DNA from: a virus
DNA length: 20,681 nt
IMG/VR virus record: IMGVR_UViG_3300028653_000065
Span: 1-20,681 of that record
Reading direction: 5' to 3' (one strand)
The position numbers were made by a program, and so were the translations under genes. This document shows positions 3,104 to 13,375 of the stretch, piece by piece; the stretch's first letter is position 1, and each line of letters starts with the position of its first letter. Under the pieces are notes generated by a model. The model saw nothing but the letters and a program-made list of their open reading frames with translations, was not told the origin of the DNA and searched no databases.

Positions 3104-3877
3104 TTATTTTGAATAATGTTGCCAAATATCATACGTTCCATCATTATTTGGTGTAAAACGCCAAGTTTTCCAAGAATAATCTTCATCATGTCCATTATCA
3201 CTGATAAATATCAATAATCGTATTTCTATATTACCATTATCTAATTTTTTTACGTATCCATTGCTAACACCATTTTTAACATAAAGTAGGTCTTTAAGGT
3301 CATCTCTATTTAAATATGTATAGCTATATGATGCTACACCATCAGAAGTACAACCATAATAATCAGTTTGAATGGCATTTGATGCAACATTCCATTTACC
3401 GTTATCATAACGAAGTAAATAAAGATTTCTTTCTATTTTTTCTCCATAATGTAAAACAGGAAAATTCCGAAAATTAAGTGTATCTGCATATGAAATCAAA
3501 TATAATTTACCATTTTCACCATAAAATGAATATGTTCTTGTTTTTAAATATTCATTTAAATCTCCACCCTTTTGAGCACACCAAATACGAGATTTATCAA
3601 CATCAACAAATGATGTGTTCGTTCCAAATTGACATATTTGCGACCCAACATGTTCTTTGTGACCAAAGAAATTGGAAGCCTTAGCGATACTGTCAGCTAT
3701 AGCTTGAGCTTTAGCTGTAGAATCTGCAATACGCTGATTTTCTGCTTGAACTTTAGCAAGAGAGTCAGCCATTTTGGTAGAGTCAGCAATTCTTTGTGCT
3801 TCAAGTTCTTCAGCACTTGGTTCACATGCAGTGATTATTAAACCTGCAATAACGAATAATAATAATAACTTTTTCAT
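3104..3877 (-). CDS. Lipoprotein with ADS-repeat coiled coil
   Basis: The 257-residue protein has a clear lipoprotein signal: Lys-Lys, a hydrophobic core, then the lipobox ITAC with Cys18 as the lipidated residue. Residues about 21-68 are a repetitive Ala/Glu/Lys/Asp helix with recurring ADSTK, ADSLAK, ADSTAK and ADSIAK units, typical of coiled-coil stalks in Bacteroidota envelope proteins. The C-terminal 185 residues form a Tyr- and Asn-rich, probably beta domain ending in WRFTPNNDGTYDIWQ, with two Cys (near 88 and 96) early in the domain. It likely sits in the outer membrane or periplasm of the host. Acidic residues follow the Cys (CEPSAEE), so surface export is possible but the match to the CxKDD signal is weak. 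It is the first gene after the 3931-3959 terminator. The function is unknown. Confidence 0.75.
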   Translation of the reverse strand: MKKLLLLFVIAGLIITACEPSAEELEAQRIADSTKMADSLAKVQAENQRIADSTAKAQAIADSIAKASNFFGHKEHVGSQICQFGTNTSFVDVDKSRIWCAQKGGDLNEYLKTRTYSFYGENGKLYLISYADTLNFRNFPVLHYGEKIERNLYLLRYDNGKWNVASNAIQTDYYGCTSDGVASYSYTYLNRDDLKDLLYVKNGVSNGYVKKLDNGNIEIRLLIFISDNGHDEDYSWKTWRFTPNNDGTYDIWQHYSK

Positions 3878-4989: not shown

Positions 4990-5625
4990 TTAGAATGGTA
5001 TTTTACGAATTAATGAATCTGGTATTAATTTATATTCTTTTGGCGGAATATAAAGAATTGTAATTGTTTTAATGCTTGGTAAACTAAAACCAACGAGCCA
5101 ACTACTTTTACTTTTTGGTATATCATATATTAATTTTTTCTCGCATCGATATGCAATAGTATCTGATTGACTTGGCGCAATGTATACTTCGTTCCATTTA
5201 TCATAATCTTGTTGATATGACTTACAAAAAGTTCCAACATGAAAATTTTTTAATTTTACATCGTTGGTGTCATTAGTATAAAACAAAATTGTGATAGGAA
5301 ATTGTTTATGCAACGTATCTTTTCTTTTAAAGAATTCTGTTGCATTATGATTTTCATAATAATTAAATCCTAAAACAACATGACTTTTATGATAATCTTT
5401 AAAAAGACTTTTTTGCGTAAAAAATGTATGTAATGGACTTGTGGTAATAATTTCAGTTCTGGTTTGTAAACTTCCACGAACTATGAAATTAGTTACAAGT
5501 GTAGCAACAAATGCTACACCACAAATAATTAAAAGTACTAAATATCTATTTTCCCAAAATTTGTTTTTGAAAAAACAAAGCGAAATTATTGATGTGATTA
5601 TAGCTGATAATATAAACGTTAACAT
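4990..5625 (-). CDS. Membrane-anchored protein of unknown function
   Basis: The 211-residue protein starts with two hydrophobic helices (about 2-19 and 27-49) separated by a short basic loop (KNKFWENR), and continues with about 160 soluble residues rich in Tyr, Thr, Asn and Lys that look mostly beta. The soluble domain contains a SHVVLGFNYY segment and ends in a Pro-rich stretch. It lies 29 bp after the large multi-pass protein and 2 bp before the next small membrane protein, so the three probably form one membrane module. No family is recognised. Confidence 0.68.
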   Translation of the reverse strand: MLTFILSAIITSIISLCFFKNKFWENRYLVLLIICGVAFVATLVTNFIVRGSLQTRTEIITTSPLHTFFTQKSLFKDYHKSHVVLGFNYYENHNATEFFKRKDTLHKQFPITILFYTNDTNDVKLKNFHVGTFCKSYQQDYDKWNEVYIAPSQSDTIAYRCEKKLIYDIPKSKSSWLVGFSLPSIKTITILYIPPKEYKLIPDSLIRKIPF

Positions 5626-5654
5626 AATTTTAAGTTTTAAGTGTTAAAAAATTT

Positions 5655-7052
5655 TTACTTTTCTTCTTCAGTATCAACCCATTCAATTCCGGGACAATAA
5701 TCACTATAACTTGCATTGAAGTATTCACCAAATACCCCACTACTATTTTTGAGACCACTACCAAATGCTTTGAATATCTTCCAAATAAGGATACCTAATG
5801 GTGCAAGTATAAGTTTAAACATAAAACTATAGAATATAATTTTAATTGGTATACATATTACATAAAAAAATCCGTATGCAAATCCAAGTACAATATATTT
5901 CACAGGATACCAAATTAAATAAATTAATGGTTCAACATACCAAACCTTTTTACCAATTTGATATTTATTAACTATATTTTGTAACCAACCGCTAATAAGC
6001 ACATATAGTACATAAAAAATACCAATAATAATTGCAACACAACCAATAAATGCAAAAATCGCCCAATTTGCAATACACCAATCAGTAACTACAATTATAC
6101 AATATACTAATCCATTAACCCCAAAATAAGATACTGCAAGTAGGAATAAAGTAACAATGCCACCAACAAATTGTTTAGTTCTTTTAATAATGTTTTTTAA
6201 ATTAGCTGGATTAAAAGTAAATGCGTTAGAAATTGAAGCAAAGATTTTCTCAAAACCATCATTAATTGGTTTCATTTTAGCATCCCATTTAGCTTTTCTT
6301 TCTGCTTGAAGACGTTTACGTTCAAAATATTTACGTTTATTTTCTTCTTCTCTTTTTTGTGCTTCTTCTCTAATAAATTGATGAGATTTTGCTAATTCTT
6401 CACGCCATTCTTCCCATTTTATTGTAAGTTCTTTTTTCTTTTTTTGATATTCTTCTGGATTTATTTTACCATCAAGATGATATTTTTCAAGCAAGAAATA
6501 ATCTAAGAAATTCTCATCAGATTTGTTAAAATATATCTTTGCTGTTATTGGCATTTTTTTATTGCTATACCAATATATGTCCCATACTTGTCGTTCATCG
6601 ACATTCATTATCCAATCATCAGTAAGTTTTTTTAGTCCCCAAACTAATGCTTTAGGAATTAATAAAAATATGAATTTAATTAAATATCCAAGCAATACAA
6701 ATATTACCACAAATAGTGAAAACAGTAATAACCAGAAATAAGGACAACCATTTTGCATTGTTTTAGGTGTTGGTGCATTACTGCGAAGTATGAATTTAAT
6801 CAAACGATAATGCCATGATTTCATACTAACTCGCATAAGTTTAGGTTTTTCAGATAAAGTGATAAATTGTGCATCGCTTTCTTTTAAAGATACTTTCTCA
6901 TCGATGGCAATATTACCATTATCAATTTCAACGACTTTTATGTAATAGCCATCAATACCATTTTTATAGAGAAATCCTCTATAATGAGAAATAGTTGATT
7001 GATTATATTCAACCACTTTGTTCAACAATAATTCTAATTTTTCGTTTTTCAT
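5655..7052 (-). CDS. Large multi-pass membrane protein with central coiled coil
   Basis: This 465-residue protein has a soluble N-terminus (1-100), a hydrophobic hairpin at about 104-135, a long highly charged helix at about 198-262 (runs of KKKK, EEWREEL, KREEENKRK), and a C-terminal half with about four membrane segments between 293 and 428. It ends in a conserved-looking acidic tail, DYCPGIEW followed by VDTEEEK. The charged helix probably lies in the cytoplasm and may drive oligomerisation. I do not recognise the family. It sits between the HAD phosphatase (2 bp away) and two smaller membrane proteins. A role in remodelling or signalling at the host inner membrane is conceivable but unproven. 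Confidence 0.75.
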   Translation of the reverse strand: MKNEKLELLLNKVVEYNQSTISHYRGFLYKNGIDGYYIKVVEIDNGNIAIDEKVSLKESDAQFITLSEKPKLMRVSMKSWHYRLIKFILRSNAPTPKTMQNGCPYFWLLLFSLFVVIFVLLGYLIKFIFLLIPKALVWGLKKLTDDWIMNVDERQVWDIYWYSNKKMPITAKIYFNKSDENFLDYFLLEKYHLDGKINPEEYQKKKKELTIKWEEWREELAKSHQFIREEAQKREEENKRKYFERKRLQAERKAKWDAKMKPINDGFEKIFASISNAFTFNPANLKNIIKRTKQFVGGIVTLFLLAVSYFGVNGLVYCIIVVTDWCIANWAIFAFIGCVAIIIGIFYVLYVLISGWLQNIVNKYQIGKKVWYVEPLIYLIWYPVKYIVLGFAYGFFYVICIPIKIIFYSFMFKLILAPLGILIWKIFKAFGSGLKNSSGVFGEYFNASYSDYCPGIEWVDTEEEK

Positions 7053-7563: not shown

Positions 7564-8112
7564 TTATTTATTTATATCATGTATATAATCCAATATTACC
7601 CAAAGTTTTTCAACTTCATCCATATTAAGATTATCTTTATACCAAGTTAATGCTTTTTTAAATATTGGTTTGCGATATTTATATTCTTCAACATATTTTT
7701 TATACATCGAACTACCATGTTCTTTACTATATTGAGCATTGGCATAAATATCACACATTTTAAGAATTATTGCACGATAATCTTTTACAGTTTTGGGCAT
7801 TGTAAGTAAGTGTCGCATTAAACGATTTTCTGCAGGAACATCAGTAACTGCTAAAACAATATCGGCAACATCTTTACCACAAACTTCACAAATATTATTA
7901 TATGTTAATTTTGCATCTTCAATACCATCATGAAGGAAAATTGCACCAATGGTTGGTTCAATATCTAATTTATTTTTATATATTAATACATGAGAATTAA
8001 ATATGTCTTTCACCATATTAATATGAATAAAATAATTTCCACCATTATATTCACAATTAGCATCGTTATAAATTTTTTGTGCAAATCCTTTTATTTTTTC
8101 TAAATTTATCAT
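7564..8112 (-). CDS. HD-domain (p)ppGpp hydrolase-like protein
   Basis: The 182-residue protein matches the HD hydrolase domain of RelA/SpoT and MESH1 and is close to MESH1 in length. Visible residues are His30 (FIHIN), His61-Asp62 and Glu65-Asp66 in LHDGIEDA, and Asp121 with Asn125 in KMCDIYAN, which keeps the D-x3-N spacing of the Rel hydrolase site. The block between (LTYNNICEVCGKDVADIV, AVTD) is typical of phage copies. The likely reaction removes the 3'-pyrophosphate of (p)ppGpp, which would blunt the host stringent response; nucleotide substrates other than (p)ppGpp are possible. The Arg nine residues before the first His in Rel seems absent. I chose ATG at 8112: the longer TTG form would begin inside the promoter. 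Confidence 0.82.
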   Translation of the reverse strand: MINLEKIKGFAQKIYNDANCEYNGGNYFIHINMVKDIFNSHVLIYKNKLDIEPTIGAIFLHDGIEDAKLTYNNICEVCGKDVADIVLAVTDVPAENRLMRHLLTMPKTVKDYRAIILKMCDIYANAQYSKEHGSSMYKKYVEEYKYRKPIFKKALTWYKDNLNMDEVEKLWVILDYIHDINK

Positions 8113-8116
8113 GATG

Positions 8117-8124
8117 CAAAGATA
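8117..8124 (-). promoter_or_regulatory. TAnnTTTG promoter box of the minus-strand operon
   Basis: TATCTTTG on the minus strand (8124-8117) ends 4 bases before the ATG of the HD hydrolase, the same spacing as at the GNAT-like gene. A start at or near the ATG would give a leaderless message for the seven-gene run. A good -33 TTG at the right distance is not seen, so the upstream half is weak. Confidence 0.68.
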
Positions 8125-8200
8125 AAACAAAATAATTAATATAAAAATTTTAAAGCAATATTATTATAAAAAATATTAATAATTATTAACACCAATGTGT

Positions 8201-8232
8201 GAATTATGTAATTTTTTATCGGAATTATGTAA
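8201..8232. repeat. Direct repeat GAATTATGTAA x2, 21-bp period
   Basis: GAATTATGTAA occurs at 8201-8211 and again at 8222-8232. The 21-bp spacing is two helical turns, so both copies face the same side of the DNA. They lie in the 227-bp divergent region between the HD hydrolase and the DUF3494 cassette, a fit for a binding site of a regulator or activator. Confidence 0.55.
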
Positions 8233-8264
8233 CATTTATTTAAAACAGTTTTCTATTTATGATA

Positions 8265-8279
8265 TATGATGTAATCATA
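8265..8279. promoter_or_regulatory. Palindrome TATGAT-GTA-ATCATA, possible operator
   Basis: A perfect 6-bp inverted repeat with a 3-bp centre lies 60 bp before the cassette's first start codon. No clear TAnnTTTG box is seen between 8131 and 8339 on the plus strand, so the cassette may need an activator or another sigma factor. Short AT-rich palindromes arise by chance, so this is tentative. Confidence 0.35.
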
Positions 8280-8339
8280 CTTATTCAACATTTACGTCTC
8301 TGTTAATTACACATAATAAATTAAGAACGAACATTAAAT

Positions 8340-9818
8340 ATGCAAAAAATGAAAACAAAAAAATTATTGTCAACTATTATGGGAATTATTATTACATTGA
8401 TTGTATTAATCACATGTAAAAAAGATGATTTTAAAGAAATTGTTGGTACGTGCCCCCAATCACAAATAGAATTTACTGTTGCATTATCATCAAAACCTCT
8501 TGCTGGCGGAACAACAATTGGTGATGGAACATTTCCTAAAGATTCATCGATAACTGTTGCTGCAACTCCAAATACTGGATATGTTTTTACTAATTGGACA
8601 AATGAAGCAACAATTGTTTCAACAAGTTCAAGTTATACATTTACTTTAACAAAAAATACAACATTAATTGCCAACTTTACTCCTGTAATTGCTGGAAATT
8701 TTGCTGTTATATTATCATCAAAACCTCTTGCTGGCGGAACAACAAATGGTGGTGGTTCATTTCTTGCTGGTTCTTCAGTAACAATTAATGCAATACCAAA
8801 TATTAATTATAAGTTTATTAATTGGACAAAAGGAACAACTATTGTTTCCGTAACCCCTAGTCATACGTTTATTTTAACAAAAGATACAACATTAATTGCA
8901 AATTTTTTACTTAATGCATATACATTAAATGTTACCGCAGTTAATGGTAGTGTCACAAAAACTCCCAATCAATTTACGTATAATAGTGGTACTTCGGTTA
9001 TCCTTATACCTATTCCTGCTTTAGGATATGTATTTAATTCTTGGAGTGGTGATGCAAGTGGTAATATAAATCCTTTAAATATTACTATGAATTCTAATAA
9101 GAATATTATAGCTAATTTTACTGCAATTATTATTATTTGCCCTACAATTATTGATTTAGGATTATCAGGTAACTTTGCAATATTTGCAGAATCTGGAATT
9201 TCAACCACTGGTGTTACTTTAATTACAGGCGATATTGGAGTAAATCCTGTGACATCTACATCAATAACTGGATTTGGATTAATTCTTCCAGCAGGTAGTG
9301 CATTTTCAACATCAAGTCTTGTTGCCGGAAAAATTTATGCTCCTGATTATGCTTCACCTTCACCTGCTAACATGGTAACCACAAGTGGCAATATGCATAC
9401 AGCATATACAACTGCAAATGGTTTAGTTGTTCCAGCACCTGTTAATGAATTCATGGCTGGTAATCTTAATGGTCAAACTTTAACTAAAGGTATTTACAAA
9501 TGGAGTTCTGGCGTTTCAATAACAAATGGTATTGTATTGGATGGTGGTGGTGATAATTGTGCAACATTCATATTCCAAATAGCTAAAGACCTTACAGTAG
9601 CAAATAGTGCAATTATTACATTACAGAATGGTGCTCAAGCAAAGAATATATTTTGGATAGTTGCTGGTAGTGGTGCAATTTTAGGAACAAACGTTAATTT
9701 TAGTGGAAATATTTTATGTAAGACATTGATTTCAGTGAATACTGGTAGTAAAGTTACTGGTAGATTGCTTGCTCAAACGGCAGTTACATTAAATGCGGTA
9801 ACAATAGTTAAACCATAA
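8340..9818 (+). CDS. Surface lipoprotein: three InlB B-repeats plus DUF3494 domain
   Basis: The 492-residue protein opens with a lipoprotein signal ending in LITC (Cys26). CKKDD follows, fitting the Bacteroidota lipoprotein export signal (Lys then two acidic residues at +3 to +5), so the protein probably faces outward. Three InlB-type B-repeats (about 43-113, 119-189 and 194-261) each carry a GY/NY-x-F-x-x-W core and end in IANF. A DUF3494 domain follows (about 268-492) with SGNFAIFAESGI, TGDIGVNP, GNLNGQTL, GIYKWSS, ATFIFQIA and the terminal parallel beta-helix pattern. DUF3494 proteins include ice-binding proteins, but many are adhesins or unknown. The first two B-repeats share 35 identical bases. 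Met4 (8349) is an alternative start. It leads the cassette. Confidence 0.87.
   Translation: MQKMKTKKLLSTIMGIIITLIVLITCKKDDFKEIVGTCPQSQIEFTVALSSKPLAGGTTIGDGTFPKDSSITVAATPNTGYVFTNWTNEATIVSTSSSYTFTLTKNTTLIANFTPVIAGNFAVILSSKPLAGGTTNGGGSFLAGSSVTINAIPNINYKFINWTKGTTIVSVTPSHTFILTKDTTLIANFLLNAYTLNVTAVNGSVTKTPNQFTYNSGTSVILIPIPALGYVFNSWSGDASGNINPLNITMNSNKNIIANFTAIIIICPTIIDLGLSGNFAIFAESGISTTGVTLITGDIGVNPVTSTSITGFGLILPAGSAFSTSSLVAGKIYAPDYASPSPANMVTTSGNMHTAYTTANGLVVPAPVNEFMAGNLNGQTLTKGIYKWSSGVSITNGIVLDGGGDNCATFIFQIAKDLTVANSAIITLQNGAQAKNIFWIVAGSGAILGTNVNFSGNILCKTLISVNTGSKVTGRLLAQTAVTLNAVTIVKP
8483..8745 (+). repeat. 35-bp perfect direct repeat inside the B-repeat region
   Basis: Bases 8483-8517 and 8711-8745 are identical over 35 bp, coding for the same LSSKPLAGGTT stretch of the first two B-repeats. 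The period of 228 bp equals 76 codons, so gain or loss of one unit keeps the frame. Identity at silent positions points to recent duplication or gene conversion. Confidence 0.9.
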
Positions 9819-9848
9819 TAATTATAAAGAAAAATAATAAACAAAAAT

Positions 9849-11144
9849 ATGAAAACAAATATTATAAAGAAAATTTTTAACATTAAAACACTTACATTAT
9901 GTATTTTAATGTTGATTGGTACAAATCTTCAATCACAAGAAAACCAGATAAATAAAAATGCTCAAAATTATGTAGATACTACATTAACAAGAAAAGATAC
10001 AATACCATCATGGTGGTTTGGTGCTGCTGTTGGTGGAAATTTAAATTATTACCGTGGTTCAACCCAAAATGTGAATGCTAATTTATTTTCATATCCTGCT
10101 TTCCATAATGGTAATGGTATAGGATTATATATTGCACCTGTTGTTATATTTCATAATCCCGAAAAAGTTTTTGGTGGTATGTTCGAATTAGGATATGATA
10201 ACCGTAAAGGTAAATTTAATGAAGTAACAACTCCATGTAATTGTCCTGCAGATTTAAAAACAAATTTAAGTTATATAACAATTGAACCAAGTATACATAT
10301 GACACCATTTAAAGGTAATTTTTATTTATTTGCCGGTCCTCGTATGGGAATTACAATCGGAAAATCATTTGTATATAATAAAGGTAAAAGTGTTGATGGA
10401 TTAATACCAGCAGAACCTCAATTAAAAGGTAATTTTACTAATATGTATGAAGCAGTAATATCTATGCATATTGGTGCTGGATATGATATTATACTTACAT
10501 CAAATTTTAATGATAGTATTAAAGGTAGTAAAGAAGGTCGAAAATATAATGAAATGGTATTATCGCCATTTATAGATTTCCATCCATACTTTGGTCAGAA
10601 TCCACGCACAATTGAAACATGGAATCTAACTACAATTAGAATAGGTGCAGTACTTAAATTTGGTCATGTAAAGATTCAAGCAAAAACAAGACCAATTATA
10701 ATACCAGTTTCTGATACAATAATACCAGTTCCTGTTCCTGTTGTTGTTATACCTGTTATTATAGTTGTTCCAGAACCAATAAAAATTACTACGGCATATA
10801 CTTTATATTTCAAATTTGATGAATCAAACCTTGATAATCAAACAATTAATTATTTAGATAATTTAATTAATGATTTGAAAAAAGATACAACAATTGGTAT
10901 TCAAATTAAATCATATGCAGATATGAGAGGAACTGAAGATTATAATATAAGTCTTTCAGAAAGACGTGGTAAAGCAGTTGTTGATTACATGATTAGTAAG
11001 GGTATTGATATATCAAGAATTAACTCAACAGCTTATGGTAAAACAAAAATATTTAATGAATATAAAGAAAGTACTAATGAAATTGAATACGCATTAAATC
11101 GTAGGTCTAATATAATAGTAATTGGTATTGCAAGTAAAAAATAA
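9849..11144 (+). CDS. OmpA-family outer-membrane protein
   Basis: The 431-residue protein has a signal peptide (residues 1-30, ending near LQSQ). An N-terminal outer-membrane beta barrel spans about 55-275, with WWFGAAVGGNLNYY and NFYLFAGPRMG, as in Bacteroidota barrels. A Pro/Val-rich linker follows (283-310), then a C-terminal OmpA domain (316-428). In the latter, YADMRGTEDYN and LSERRGKAV give Asp358 and Arg373, the pair that binds diaminopimelate in peptidoglycan. CNCPADLKTNLSY (130-142) is a recognisable segment of this barrel type. It would tie the outer membrane to the wall. It follows the first DUF3494 gene by 30 bp and is probably co-transcribed. Such a protein is unusual for a phage and looks host-derived. 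Confidence 0.9.
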   Translation: MKTNIIKKIFNIKTLTLCILMLIGTNLQSQENQINKNAQNYVDTTLTRKDTIPSWWFGAAVGGNLNYYRGSTQNVNANLFSYPAFHNGNGIGLYIAPVVIFHNPEKVFGGMFELGYDNRKGKFNEVTTPCNCPADLKTNLSYITIEPSIHMTPFKGNFYLFAGPRMGITIGKSFVYNKGKSVDGLIPAEPQLKGNFTNMYEAVISMHIGAGYDIILTSNFNDSIKGSKEGRKYNEMVLSPFIDFHPYFGQNPRTIETWNLTTIRIGAVLKFGHVKIQAKTRPIIIPVSDTIIPVPVPVVVIPVIIVVPEPIKITTAYTLYFKFDESNLDNQTINYLDNLINDLKKDTTIGIQIKSYADMRGTEDYNISLSERRGKAVVDYMISKGIDISRINSTAYGKTKIFNEYKESTNEIEYALNRRSNIIVIGIASKK

Positions 11145-11172
11145 TTAGATTTTAATAAAAACTCCAAATAAA

Positions 11173-11277
11173 ATGATAATTAAGATAATATTATTTGTTA
11201 TTATTGTAATAGTGGTAGTTGCCATATATTTCAAAATAATTAAAGAAAGAAAAAATAAAACAAAAAACTCGTTATAA
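11173..11277 (+). CDS. 34-residue single-span membrane peptide
   Basis: A short frame begins with ATG after an A-rich AATAAA and codes for a hydrophobic helix (residues 2-23, nearly all Ile, Val and Leu) followed by a strongly basic tail (KIIKERKNKTKNS). The composition is that of a real single-pass peptide with cytoplasmic tail. It lies between the OmpA gene and the second DUF3494 gene. No family is recognised; in position and form it resembles the other two small membrane peptides of the cassette. Confidence 0.55.
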   Translation: MIIKIILFVIIVIVVVAIYFKIIKERKNKTKNSL

Positions 11278-11313
11278 TCTTATTGATTATAATATTTTAA
11301 AAAATATAAAATA

Positions 11314-12048
11314 ATGAAAAAAATATTTACATTATTTACTGTAATTAGTATTGCACTAAGTATTTTTATTGTTGAATGTAAAAAAGATAATAATTCTGTT
11401 ATAAAAATTAATATCCCAATTCAAACAATAAAAATGACACAACCATCACTTGCAAGTATAACGAATTTTGTAATTCTTGCTGGTGCGTCAATTACAAGTA
11501 CAAATGCAACTATAATTACAGGTAATCTTGGATTATGTCCGGGTACTTCTATAAGTGGTTTTCCACCAGCAATATTAAATGGAACTCTTCATGTTAATGA
11601 TTTAATTGCAATTCAAGCAAAACTTGATTTGATTTCTGTTTATAATGATTTAATGGGACGTAAAAGTACTGATATTGTAACATTATCGGGAAATATTGGT
11701 GGTCTTACATTAACTCCGGGTTTATATAAATCAACATCTACGTTAGCAATATCTTCCGGTGATTTAACTTTTGATGCGAAAGGTGATACCAATGCTATTT
11801 TTATCATACAAATAGCATCAAGTCTTACAACTACTTCTGGACGTAAAGTTATTTTAACTGATGGTGCTGTTGCATCTAATATTTATTGGCAAATAGGTAG
11901 TTCAGCAACATTTGGAACTACTTCAGTATTTAAAGGAACAATTATCGCATTACAATCAATTACATTTAATACTGGTGCAACACTTAATGGTAGAGCATTA
12001 GTAAGAAATGGTAGTATAACAATGATTGGTAATACAATTACAAAATAA
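11314..12048 (+). CDS. Surface lipoprotein with single DUF3494 (ice-binding-like) domain
   Basis: This 244-residue protein is the minimal form of the family: lipoprotein signal ending in IVEC (Cys22), then CKKDNN, similar to the export signal of the first DUF3494 protein, then one DUF3494 domain (about 46-243). Diagnostic segments are TNFVILAGASI, TGNLGLCPGTSISGFPP, NIGGLTLTPGLYK, AIFIIQIASSL, NIYWQIGSSATFG and GTIIALQSITFNTGATLNGRAL. The fold is a beta-helix; known members bind ice or act as adhesins, but no ice-binding face can be proven by eye. It conforms more closely to the family than the 8340 gene does and lacks B-repeats. Both DUF3494 genes flank the OmpA gene, suggesting a jointly expressed surface set. 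Confidence 0.88.
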   Translation: MKKIFTLFTVISIALSIFIVECKKDNNSVIKINIPIQTIKMTQPSLASITNFVILAGASITSTNATIITGNLGLCPGTSISGFPPAILNGTLHVNDLIAIQAKLDLISVYNDLMGRKSTDIVTLSGNIGGLTLTPGLYKSTSTLAISSGDLTFDAKGDTNAIFIIQIASSLTTTSGRKVILTDGAVASNIYWQIGSSATFGTTSVFKGTIIALQSITFNTGATLNGRALVRNGSITMIGNTITK

Positions 12049-12056
12049 TAAATAAA

Positions 12057-12209
12057 ATGGGAACACTACTTTACATAATAGCATTTATATTTCTCATAGG
12101 ATGGGCAATAGGTGTTTTTGTTTTTGCTGTTAGTGGATTTATTCACGTACTTCTAATTATTGCAATAATTGCAATATTATTTAGACTTATAAAAGGCAAA
12201 ACAATATAA
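12057..12209 (+). CDS. lmo0937/DUF5670-type small membrane protein
   Basis: A 50-residue protein with two hydrophobic helices, the first starting LLYIIAFIFLIGWAIGVF and the second FIHVLLIIAIIAILFRLIKG. The pattern of a first helix with Leu-Ile-x-Trp, a central Gly-x-x-His and a final LFRLIKG matches the lmo0937 family (DUF5670), widespread two-helix proteins often found among stress genes. Its function is unknown. It starts 8 bp after the second DUF3494 gene and 30 bp before the Thivi_2564-type gene. Confidence 0.78.
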   Translation: MGTLLYIIAFIFLIGWAIGVFVFAVSGFIHVLLIIAIIAILFRLIKGKTI

Positions 12210-12239
12210 AAATAATATTATTAATTAAAAACAAATAAA

Positions 12240-12425
12240 ATGAGTTTAATAAGTATTTTAATTGTACTAATCGTAGTAGGAATTCTCCTATGGCTTGTTA
12301 ATACATACATCCCATTAGACGGAAAAATTAAACAAATTCTTAATATCGTAGTAATAATTGCTATAGTGGTATGGTTACTTAAGGCATTTGGACTATTTGC
12401 TTATTTAAAAGGCATACACTTTTAA
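12240..12425 (+). CDS. Thivi_2564-type small membrane protein
   Basis: A 61-residue two-helix protein. Segments ILIVLIVVGILLWLVN, YIPLDGKIKQILN and VVIIAIVVWLLKAFG follow the pattern of the Thivi_2564 family, small inner-membrane proteins of unknown function found in many bacteria and usually chromosomal. It is the last gene of the cassette: 28 bp after its stop begins a 14-bp-stem terminator. Confidence 0.8.
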   Translation: MSLISILIVLIVVGILLWLVNTYIPLDGKIKQILNIVVIIAIVVWLLKAFGLFAYLKGIHF

Positions 12426-12452
12426 AAACAATTCTTTTATTTTTAAGAAATG

Positions 12453-12492
12453 AATGAATGGGATAATTATGTATTTATTCCATCCATTTTTT
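12453..12492 (+). terminator. Intrinsic terminator closing the envelope cassette
   Basis: Bases 12453-12466 pair with 12475-12488 around an 8-base loop; the 14-position stem has one A-C mismatch and one G-T pair. A run of six T (12487-12492) follows on the plus strand. It lies 28 bp after the last cassette gene. Confidence 0.82.
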
Positions 12493-12521
12493 GGATATTT
12501 CATTTATTTGTTATATATTTG
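12491..12521 (+). promoter_or_regulatory. Bacteroidota-type promoter for the 12556 gene group
   Basis: TTG (12491-12493, within TTTTTTG) is followed by 20 bases and TATATTTG (12514-12521). The next start codon is at 12556, giving a leader of about 30 bases. The -33 element overlaps the T-tract of the cassette terminator. The sequence after the box, TCAAAC, is shared with the promoter at 18957-18984. Confidence 0.8.
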
Positions 12522-12555
12522 TCAAACTTTTTAATAAAATATTGTAACCTTTATT

Positions 12556-12807
12556 ATGGAAGATTCGTATTATAGAATAAAAAATATTATGAATATAATT
12601 AAAGTTAGTGGATTTCATATTTTCTCCAAAGGAGATGTAACAATTGATACGAATGATATTCAATGGAAATTACAAGATAATTTTTATTTTGATAATGAAG
12701 AAGAACTTGAAGTTTTTCAAAAAGACATAAAAACTTTGTTTGAAAATTATTGTGGTGAAGTTACTGTAAAAACTTTTGAAGAAGTCGATGGAAGCAATAT
12801 TAAATAA
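12556..12807 (+). CDS. Small acidic protein of unknown function
   Basis: An 83-residue soluble, acidic protein with no recognised domain. A central helix-like segment, FDNEEELEVFQKDIKTLFENY (about 46-66), is flanked by beta-prone stretches (VTIDTNDIQWKL, GEVTVKTFEE), suggesting a small alpha/beta fold. It is the first gene after the 12491-12521 promoter and overlaps the following HAD gene by 20 bp, so both are probably made together. Confidence 0.65.
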   Translation: MEDSYYRIKNIMNIIKVSGFHIFSKGDVTIDTNDIQWKLQDNFYFDNEEELEVFQKDIKTLFENYCGEVTVKTFEEVDGSNIK

Positions 12808-13375
12808 ATATAATTCGGTCCTATTCTTAGATATTGATGGTGTAGTAAATTCGGAGCTATTTTATAAAGAAAAATTTGCGCATTTGGATAAATATAATAA
12901 CATACCTTTATATAGGGTAGTAAAAAAACATTTACTTAAATTGGTTAAATCAAAAGAAATTTTGGAATTGGATTTTTATAAAAGTCAAATGTGTTCAATT
13001 CGAATTGGTTGGTTAAATGCATTATGTGAAGAAACTAATTCAGCAGTTGTTCTTTCAGCTTCAATGAGAAGTCATCATGATGTGGAAAAATTAAATCAGA
13101 TTTTTAAATATTGTGGAGCGACATTCACAATTATTGATAAAACCCCATATACTGGATATGAAAGAGGAACTGAAATTAGTAAATGGTTAAAAGAAAATTG
13201 TATGAAATGGTTTGGTGTTCATTATTATGATTTTTATCGTTTCGCTATAATTGATGACGATAGTGATGTTCTTTTAAATCAACAATTTAACTTTTTTCAA
13301 ACAGATAATTATTCAGGTTTAACCCCAAATATTTGTTATAGAATAAAAAGATTTTTAACACATAAAACATTTTAG
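12788..13375 (+). CDS. HAD phosphatase of the Swiss-Army-Knife RNA-repair type
   Basis: Counted from the ATG at 12788, this 195-residue protein has motif I LDIDGVV (Asp15, Asp17), motif II VVLSAS, an ERGTEISKWL segment with the Arg usual for this group, and motif IV FAIIDDDSDVL. It then has QTDNYSGLT, typical of the C-terminal end of HAD domains in RNA-repair proteins. It likely removes terminal phosphates from RNA, DNA or nucleotides, and the Rnl2-type ligase downstream makes RNA repair plausible. A longer frame from TTG at 12776 is less likely. It differs from the other HAD protein at 7054-7551 in length and in motif II, so the pair are distant paralogues. Confidence 0.82.
   Translation: MEAILNKYNSVLFLDIDGVVNSELFYKEKFAHLDKYNNIPLYRVVKKHLLKLVKSKEILELDFYKSQMCSIRIGWLNALCEETNSAVVLSASMRSHHDVEKLNQIFKYCGATFTIIDKTPYTGYERGTEISKWLKENCMKWFGVHYYDFYRFAIIDDDSDVLLNQQFNFFQTDNYSGLTPNICYRIKRFLTHKTF

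Follow-up and report, generated by a model that had tools for sequence, protein, structure and literature searches.

A phage-borne cassette of DUF3494, OmpA and small membrane peptide genes with its own operator-like element

EfcIBP is a bacterial protein of the DUF3494 family (PF11999), for which the excerpted text of PMC10992025 gives a putative signal sequence and a measured thermal hysteresis of 0.53 °C at 50 µM, and an ice-binding protein of Candidatus Cryosericum odellii has been solved in an engineered form (9LI0; see also 9LHN and 9LHS) as a chain of 228 residues. On the viral side, the available portion of a study of Arctic viral operational taxonomic units (vOTUs; PMC11515562) lists three annotated PF11999 genes with possible cryoprotection and a link to Flavobacteriales, ties PF11999 homologs to Synechococcus phage S-SKS1 and cites work on a viral antifreeze protein from the Southern Ocean. 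Here we describe a gene cassette at positions 8340-12425 of the 20,681-base IMG/VR virus record IMGVR_UViG_3300028653_000065 (the window), in which two DUF3494 genes, IBPB and IBP2, stand together with genes for an OmpA-family protein and small membrane peptides.

The locus resembles each of these systems in part. IBP2 shares 145 of 210 residues (69%) and most of the Ser/Thr B-face with 6EIO, which is taken to be EfcIBP, but EfcIBP is a bacterial protein with measured activity, whereas IBP2 is phage-encoded and a putative ice binder. The DUF3494 domain of IBPB is identical to 9LI0 at 121 of 220 aligned residues, although the solved Cryosericum chain has no B-repeat stalk and IBPB is a phage lipoprotein. 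As with the Arctic vOTU genes, a DUF3494 gene lies in a viral contig and cryoprotection is proposed, but what is available of that account makes no mention of an operon, OmpA, an operator or synteny. Cellulophaga phage phi14:2 also has an OmpA-domain gene, with 33% identity over only 25% of the query, and the CKKDDF tail of IBPB fits the LES export signal of Bacteroidetes surface lipoproteins (PMC5080379), a likeness that extends in part to IBPB of the relative L007 and to IBP2 and that predicts export. A search of the open-licence literature returned no paper linking DUF3494 with phage, and one relevant paper for PF11999 combined with viral and auxiliary. The kinds of gene and the carriage of such cargo by phages are known, and the combination, the operator and the recurrence appear to be new.

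The cassette lies in phage genomes and is found in different ones; an operator-like element, the genes and a 3′ hairpin fill a slot that stands empty in close relatives. We are inclined, with slightly more confidence than doubt, to read it as a mobile and separately regulated cargo operon that would put ice- or surface-binding lipoproteins on the envelope of the infected Bacteroidota cell and brace that envelope.

The cassette and its slot in phage genomes

An earlier sequence-only reading of this DNA had proposed a phage-carried gene set that alters the host surface, and an open reading frame (ORF) check and profile matches recovered all six of its plus-strand ORFs at 8340-12425 with the families that it had named. 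The flanking genes are of phage type, as it had also supposed, and not ordinary chromosome: they include a DNA ligase (1.6e-99), an RNA ligase (2.8e-54), an endolysin-like gene and HAD-type phrog_1818 genes. The entire window recurs in another record, within a viral contig of 218,381 bp; the two sequences disagree at 11 of the 20,681 bases (99.95% identity), none of which falls in 8340-12425, and both borders are intact there, with the same neighbors in diverged phages. This contig belongs to a myovirus and encodes a tail sheath, a Dda-type helicase, a primase and a phage exonuclease (four of ten proteins examined had a family); sheath genes were present in three of six records checked, and the phrog_2 terminase profile found no match in the 218-kb contig and matches in two of nine records, both of the same lineage and with a slot lacking the cassette. 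In the proposed comparison of composition, the three large genes of the cassette fall inside the phage range of codon usage, with a GC content at third codon positions of 0.07-0.12 versus a phage mean of 0.131 ± 0.037 (126 genes), and the two tiny genes deviate (z -4.7, over 339 bp only). An assembly chimera or bacterial contamination of the viral bin would explain why the gene families look host-like, but the identical cassette in the 218-kb record, its presence in the same slot of diverged phages and the codon usage of the large genes lead us to reject this as extremely improbable. On borders and flanks alike, the evidence supports a phage-carried host-surface set. An Rfam scan of the window returned nothing at the gathering score.

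Scanning IMG/VR with an alignment of the DUF3494 domain gave 16 loci, and an alignment of OmpA gave seven; the domain alignment was superior to a first IBPB alignment, which had yielded four loci only, with poor patterns. Both scans selected the same seven cassette records, showing that the set co-occurs elsewhere, and the other nine DUF3494 loci have no cassette OmpA. The slot is marked on the left by an HD phosphohydrolase-like phage gene (7564-8130, minus strand; family match and slot comparison) and on the right by the conserved phage gene g83 (12556-12807, plus strand; slot comparison and alignment), which is followed by a HAD-type gene (12788-13375, plus strand, with the ORF open from 12776) that matches the phrog_1818 profile. 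The cassette lies between HD and g83/HAD in the window and its 218-kb contig and in records L007, L012 and L013, and L021 shows the right side only. These four phages have IBPB, OmpA and Thivi_2564 in common and lmo0937 in two of the four, so that of the six-gene unit first proposed the co-occurrence stands but not the six-gene core, the conserved core being the DUF3494-B-repeat protein, OmpA and Thivi_2564. The cassettes of L013 and L022 encode two more products, a protein of ~100 aa with a hydrophobic tail end and a small lipoprotein-like one rich in Tyr and His.

L022 carries the cassette at a different site, in a contig that encodes a clamp loader and an RNA ligase and in which 7 of 36 ORFs match the protein set of the window and 218-kb contig, three of these being cassette genes. 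In L034 a terminase gene and a portal gene follow ~6 kb after OmpA and an IBPB that is truncated where the contig stops; 2 of the 20 ORFs match that set, both cassette genes, and Thivi_2564 was not detected there. Together with the slot phages, these sites represent at least three phage contexts. The L022 contig also encodes thioredoxin and NAD-synthesis genes and, near the cassette, a TROVE (Ro60-like) domain protein (L022:5653-7323; 30.3 bits versus a cut-off of 23).

Fourteen slot relatives were inspected. No cassette lies between HD and HAD in L067, L041, L042, L054, L055, L056 and L064, the last having a homing-endonuclease-like gene in its place; L046, L047 and L065 have a different gene of 182-190 aa in the slot, and L043 and L048 have neither a recognizable HD gene nor a cassette. 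The close relative L067 aligns with the window at 8012-8125 (92%) and 12559-12696 (85%), on either side of the cassette, and represents an empty site. Two further relatives hold remnants: L049 has the operator and Thivi_2564 only, and in L053 a remnant displaced upstream of HD has the operator and an intact Thivi_2564, while a deletion joins the start of IBPB, out of frame, to the end of lmo0937/DUF5670 (73% DNA identity over 83 bp to L012). In being present in a phage genome and missing from close relatives, the cassette resembles phage moron or auxiliary genes.

The remnants also bear on another explanation, that the phages captured a host envelope-stress operon serving membrane integrity through OmpA, Thivi_2564 and lmo0937, with the DUF3494 proteins as passengers. 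The operator and Thivi_2564 are indeed what is left in L049 and what stayed intact in L053, but L034 has IBPB and OmpA where Thivi_2564 was not detected, among the four genes compared in all four phages the median ratio of nonsynonymous to synonymous substitution rates (dN/dS) is smallest for the DUF3494 domain, and no host source was found in the one weak genome scan, which leaves this explanation quite unlikely.

Homing endonuclease genes occur at or beside the slot, by Pfam match in L012 (GIY-YIG, L012:8759-9406), L013 and L049 (LAGLIDADG, L013:7357-8325 and L049:9208-10017) and by likeness only in L053 (L053:9208-10017) and L064 (L064:8675-9349), with L022:7364-8035 giving no Pfam match; we infer that such enzymes might help move the cassette. 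By eye, transposase-like and recombinase-like genes precede the decayed cassette in the 299-kb contig of L053 (L053:1-2325). The RNA ligase of L007 (L007:11872-14019) seems to have an in-frame intein-like insert of ~370-380 residues that starts with CFPYGTPI, ends with VHN before S and contains in its middle what we take to be a LAGLIDADG-like motif. To the left of the slot (window 3104-3877 and 4990-7052) lie more membrane- or lipoprotein-like phage genes (g257, g211, g465 matching the membrane family phrog_944), with counterparts both in relatives that have the cassette and in those that lack it.

Operator-like element, leader and 3′ region

The divergent regulatory region proposed ahead of the cassette is real and could be sharpened by pattern searches and alignment to an operator-like element at 8201-8232 (plus strand), in which two direct repeats, GAATTATGTAA, of the form GAAT(T/C)ATGTAA stand 21 bp apart from start to start, a spacing of about two helical turns. 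Allowing up to three mismatches, the repeat pattern, which was derived from these sequences, has one match in the window versus 0.02 expected from shuffles. In IMG/VR the strict pattern is confined to five contigs, those of three cassette phages and of the two remnant phages, and a relaxed pattern occurs in 13, of which six belong to the cassette lineage, with the pattern ahead of the cassette or of what is left of it; in the other seven the match lies inside unrelated ORFs, and no cassette gene was seen in the examined stretch. Compared with plasmids, the operator region had no meaningful match (best E about 1). Spaced direct repeats resemble the binding sites of dimeric activators, and because the cassette contains no regulator gene and the 218-kb contig has a single strict site, the repeats would be bound by a putative regulator of the host.

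The promoter and leader region (8233-8339, plus strand) could be aligned in six phages, and the block that follows the operator, ~TTTTCTATTTATrnTATATGnTGTA, is common to the relatives and partly conserved. At the other end, the 3′ region (12426-12555, plus strand), which includes the g83 leader, has stable RNA hairpins that may act as a terminator, with a folding energy of -23.8 kcal/mol (z -2.97) equaled by 2 of 200 shuffles. A strong terminator had been claimed here; the hairpin does fold better than shuffles, but its strength found no support, as a consensus terminator scan detected none at 12426-12555 and its sole terminator-like site lies inside IBP2.

Cassette proteins, the ice face and selection

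IBPB (8340-9818, plus strand, with the start likely at 8349, MKTKK) was characterized by profiles, alignment and fold match as a putative lipoprotein with three InlB-type B-repeats (Flg_new_2, 3.4e-41) and a C-terminal DUF3494 domain (PF11999 Ice_binding, 2.7e-66). Both DUF3494 proteins are far over the PF11999 cut-off (223.6 and 204 bits versus 28.7). The signal peptide of IBPB ends in ITC-KKDDF, and the resulting CKKDDF, found in four of five aligned phages (window, L012, L013 and L022), fits C-X-K-(D/E)2-X, the signal that PMC5080379 found to be optimal for export to the surface of Capnocytophaga. The number of B-repeats differs between phages, which fits the expectation for a stalk. The structural model is confident over the B-repeats and has low pLDDT over most of the DUF3494 domain, so that the fold match of this part to 9LI0 (Z 15.2) does no more than agree with the sequence result. 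A tblastn search of a cultured-phage collection with IBPB found no DUF3494, its single match (34%) lying in the B-repeat region.

IBP2 (11314-12048, plus strand) consists of a single DUF3494 domain (PF11999, 2.8e-60) behind a lipoprotein-like start whose lipobox is poorer than that of IBPB. By tblastn, no relative of IBP2 other than IBPB was found in any of the eight other cassette or remnant loci, and the cultured-phage collection gave no match. The outward segments of the B-face published for AnpIBP (PMC7277481, in the part available) were mapped onto both proteins by sequence alignment and not by structure. IBP2 reads ASITST/TSIS/STLAIS/SSLTTT/SSATFG/QSITFN/GSITMI, compared with SSVTNT/TSIG/SSLAVS/STLTTT/SSASFG/ESITFD/GAVTME in 6EIO, and has Ser or Thr in most of the Ser/Thr columns of 6EIO, among them those that correspond to Ser153 and Thr156 of AnpIBP, a pair whose replacement cut activity to 17% in PMC7277481. 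The face of IBPB is irregular: Ile or Val stands where AnpIBP needs Thr156, the matching Ser is kept, the S/T-G/A-x-S/T pattern is kept in b1 and b2 and partly in b6 (with the first column gapped), and b3 has Lys/Gln-Asp/Asn. Since the Ser/Thr face is kept in one protein and irregular in the other, IBP2 is a likely ice binder, and IBPB a plausible but less settled one. Of the phenotypes first put forward (adhesion, ice or desiccation tolerance, blocking of superinfection), ice is now favored for one DUF3494 protein of the cassette, and the phenotype as such remains conjectural.

A second type of viral DUF3494 protein occurs in L028:9986-10657 (3300050190_000021), L023-L027 and L030-L032 and lacks an evident signal peptide in the copies that include the start; it is 45-49% identical to IBPB of the window and 68-96% among the five compared. 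In L028 its gene is flanked by genes for portal and head morphogenesis, in L031 it precedes those for terminase and portal, and the product may perhaps be a virion-associated protein of phages that use Shine-Dalgarno (SD) sequences.

The OmpA-family protein (9849-11144, plus strand) has a signal-peptide-like start, a probable beta-barrel, a Pro/Val-rich linker and a C-terminal OmpA domain (PF00691, 2.1e-16; 60.5 bits versus a cut-off of 27.2), in which Asp358 and Arg373, presumably the wall-binding residues, are invariant across four phages. For the N-terminal 8-strand barrel of the family, strands are predicted by a weak model (mean pLDDT 52). OmpA-domain matches were found in 13 cultured-phage records, and the plasmid matches (best 20 of 73 records) are likewise to the OmpA domain only. 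An ORF call at 11173-11277 (plus strand) gives a putative 34-aa product with one hydrophobic stretch, for which no family scored over cut-off and tblastn found no match in the eight other cassette or remnant loci. The last two genes encode small membrane peptides, lmo0937/DUF5670 (12057-12209, plus strand; DUF5670 8.5e-12, lmo0937 NF033488 1.5e-12, 47.3 versus 30 bits) and Thivi_2564 (12240-12425, plus strand; NF041949 4.8e-22, 77.8 versus 33 bits). Thivi_2564 is the passenger kept most widely, being found in eight further records, of which two hold remnants, and it had no plasmid or cultured-phage match with the low-complexity filter on. Judged by title, the literature on lmo0937, Thivi_2564 and DUF5670 concerns mainly Listeria, plus a small-ORF database.

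Selection was estimated by the Nei-Gojobori method for pairs among four phages. The DUF3494 domain has dN/dS of 0.07-0.14 with synonymous divergence (dS) of 0.52-0.68 in all six pairs and evolves under purifying selection; the corresponding values are 0.18-0.32 and 0.71-1.06 for OmpA and 0.14-0.34 and 0.40-1.33 for Thivi_2564, and the medians of dN/dS rise from 0.09 for DUF3494 through 0.16 for HAD and 0.23 for OmpA to 0.24 for Thivi_2564. In the flanks, dS is 1.21-2.83 in five of six pairs for the downstream HAD gene and saturated in one, 0.79-2.06 for EXO, HD, g249 and DNA ligase, and 1.45 and saturated for g83; against the cassette-less L067 it is 0.39 for HD and 0.86-2.34 for HAD. The lower dS suggests that IBPB and, less clearly, OmpA are younger than the flanks, as exchange among phages would give; Thivi_2564 is not clearly different, and codon bias could contribute to these values. 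Distances among cassettes are star-like, and we claim no recombination from conflicting trees.

These data also speak to the idea that the cassette serves superinfection exclusion or receptor masking, in which stalked lipoproteins and a phage OmpA would block the adsorption of rivals and ice would be irrelevant. The products are of envelope type, the genes are shared among phages and subject to loss in the manner of phage-phage conflict genes, and the B-repeat count varies. However, no other part is as conserved as the DUF3494 head, with 90-92% identity among the five phages in which the domain is complete, which would not be expected of a changing receptor mask, and IBP2 retains a largely complete Ser/Thr ice face, so we regard this idea as rather unlikely.

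Host, proposed mechanism and meaning

An SD-like motif precedes ATG-start ORFs in 4 of 183 cases in pieces of the 218-kb contig (3.1 in shuffled sequence), 4 of 84 in slot relatives (shuffled 3.6) and, for the contig of L022, 4 of 55 (shuffled 1.8), whereas the same script found it in 24 of 41 cases in the head-module contigs of the second DUF3494 type (shuffled 8.6). Genes of Bacteroidota typically have A-rich leaders and make no use of SD sequences. The DNA ligase is closest to those of Cellulophaga phages (48.5%; next 32.6%), and the hosts are probably Bacteroidota bacteria. The nearest relatives of the sheath, from an uncultured phage and cyanophages, give no pointer to that group.

In the mechanism that we propose for a regulated cargo operon, an activator, probably the host's, would bind the 21-bp-spaced repeats and turn transcription on during infection. 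IBPB and IBP2 would be lipidated, and IBPB would be flipped to the cell surface through its C-X-K-(D/E)2-like signal, with its DUF3494 head held out on the B-repeat stalk; OmpA would cross the outer membrane and tether it to peptidoglycan, and the lmo0937 and Thivi_2564 peptides would act in the membrane. The displayed heads, most likely those of IBP2 and plausibly those of IBPB, would bind ice or else another surface, and the infected cell might survive freezing or stay attached long enough for phage production. A bolder version, possible but held tentatively, is that the operon makes ice-binding virocells through stalked surface ice-binding proteins and an OmpA anchor, has been passed among at least three phage groups and is controlled by a regulator of the host that responds to cold or to stress of the envelope.

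In addition to the irregular face of IBPB, which is the conserved protein of the two, several observations weigh against the interpretation as an ice- or surface-binding cargo operon. The tail of IBPB in L007 is CKKDNF, one acid short of the export rule, and that of IBP2 is CKKDNN, with one acidic residue and a Glu before the Cys. The cassette is dispensable, given its decay in L049 and L053, and L022 carries it without the operator. A scan of the genomes of 84,980 species with two short, weak patterns from the variable N-terminus of OmpA returned one relative among 418 stretches, a Dependentiae OmpA-domain match. OmpA and the small peptides fit membrane stabilization equally well. Plasmid DUF3494 matches of IBPB (best 20 of 41 records) are haloarchaeal, actinobacterial and from Runella, the best being haloarchaeal (47%), and DUF3494 proteins are found in warm habitats too, as stated in the available part of PMC6892780, suggesting that the ligand may not be ice. 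If the heads instead bound mineral, polysaccharide or cell surfaces, infected cells would adhere or aggregate; the adhesin-like stalk, with a weak fold match of the model to the InlB B-repeat (Z 6.1, where values below 8 may be chance), agrees with this, as do the warm and haloarchaeal occurrences and the irregular face of IBPB. Yet for IBPB as for IBP2 the closest solved structures carry titles that name ice-binding proteins, 6EIO coming from an Antarctic consortium and 9LI0 from Ca. Cryosericum, whose habitat we take to be cold, and adhesion as the main role seems to us improbable, if not greatly so.

Earlier viral DUF3494 listings, in the portions available, came without gene context, and the present locus adds a multi-gene cassette, a comparison with empty sites, decayed copies and purifying selection. 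The operator offers a specific handle for a search for the regulator. Phages of this kind may change the physical behavior of the cells that they infect, which can be tested directly with recombinant proteins and reporter fusions.

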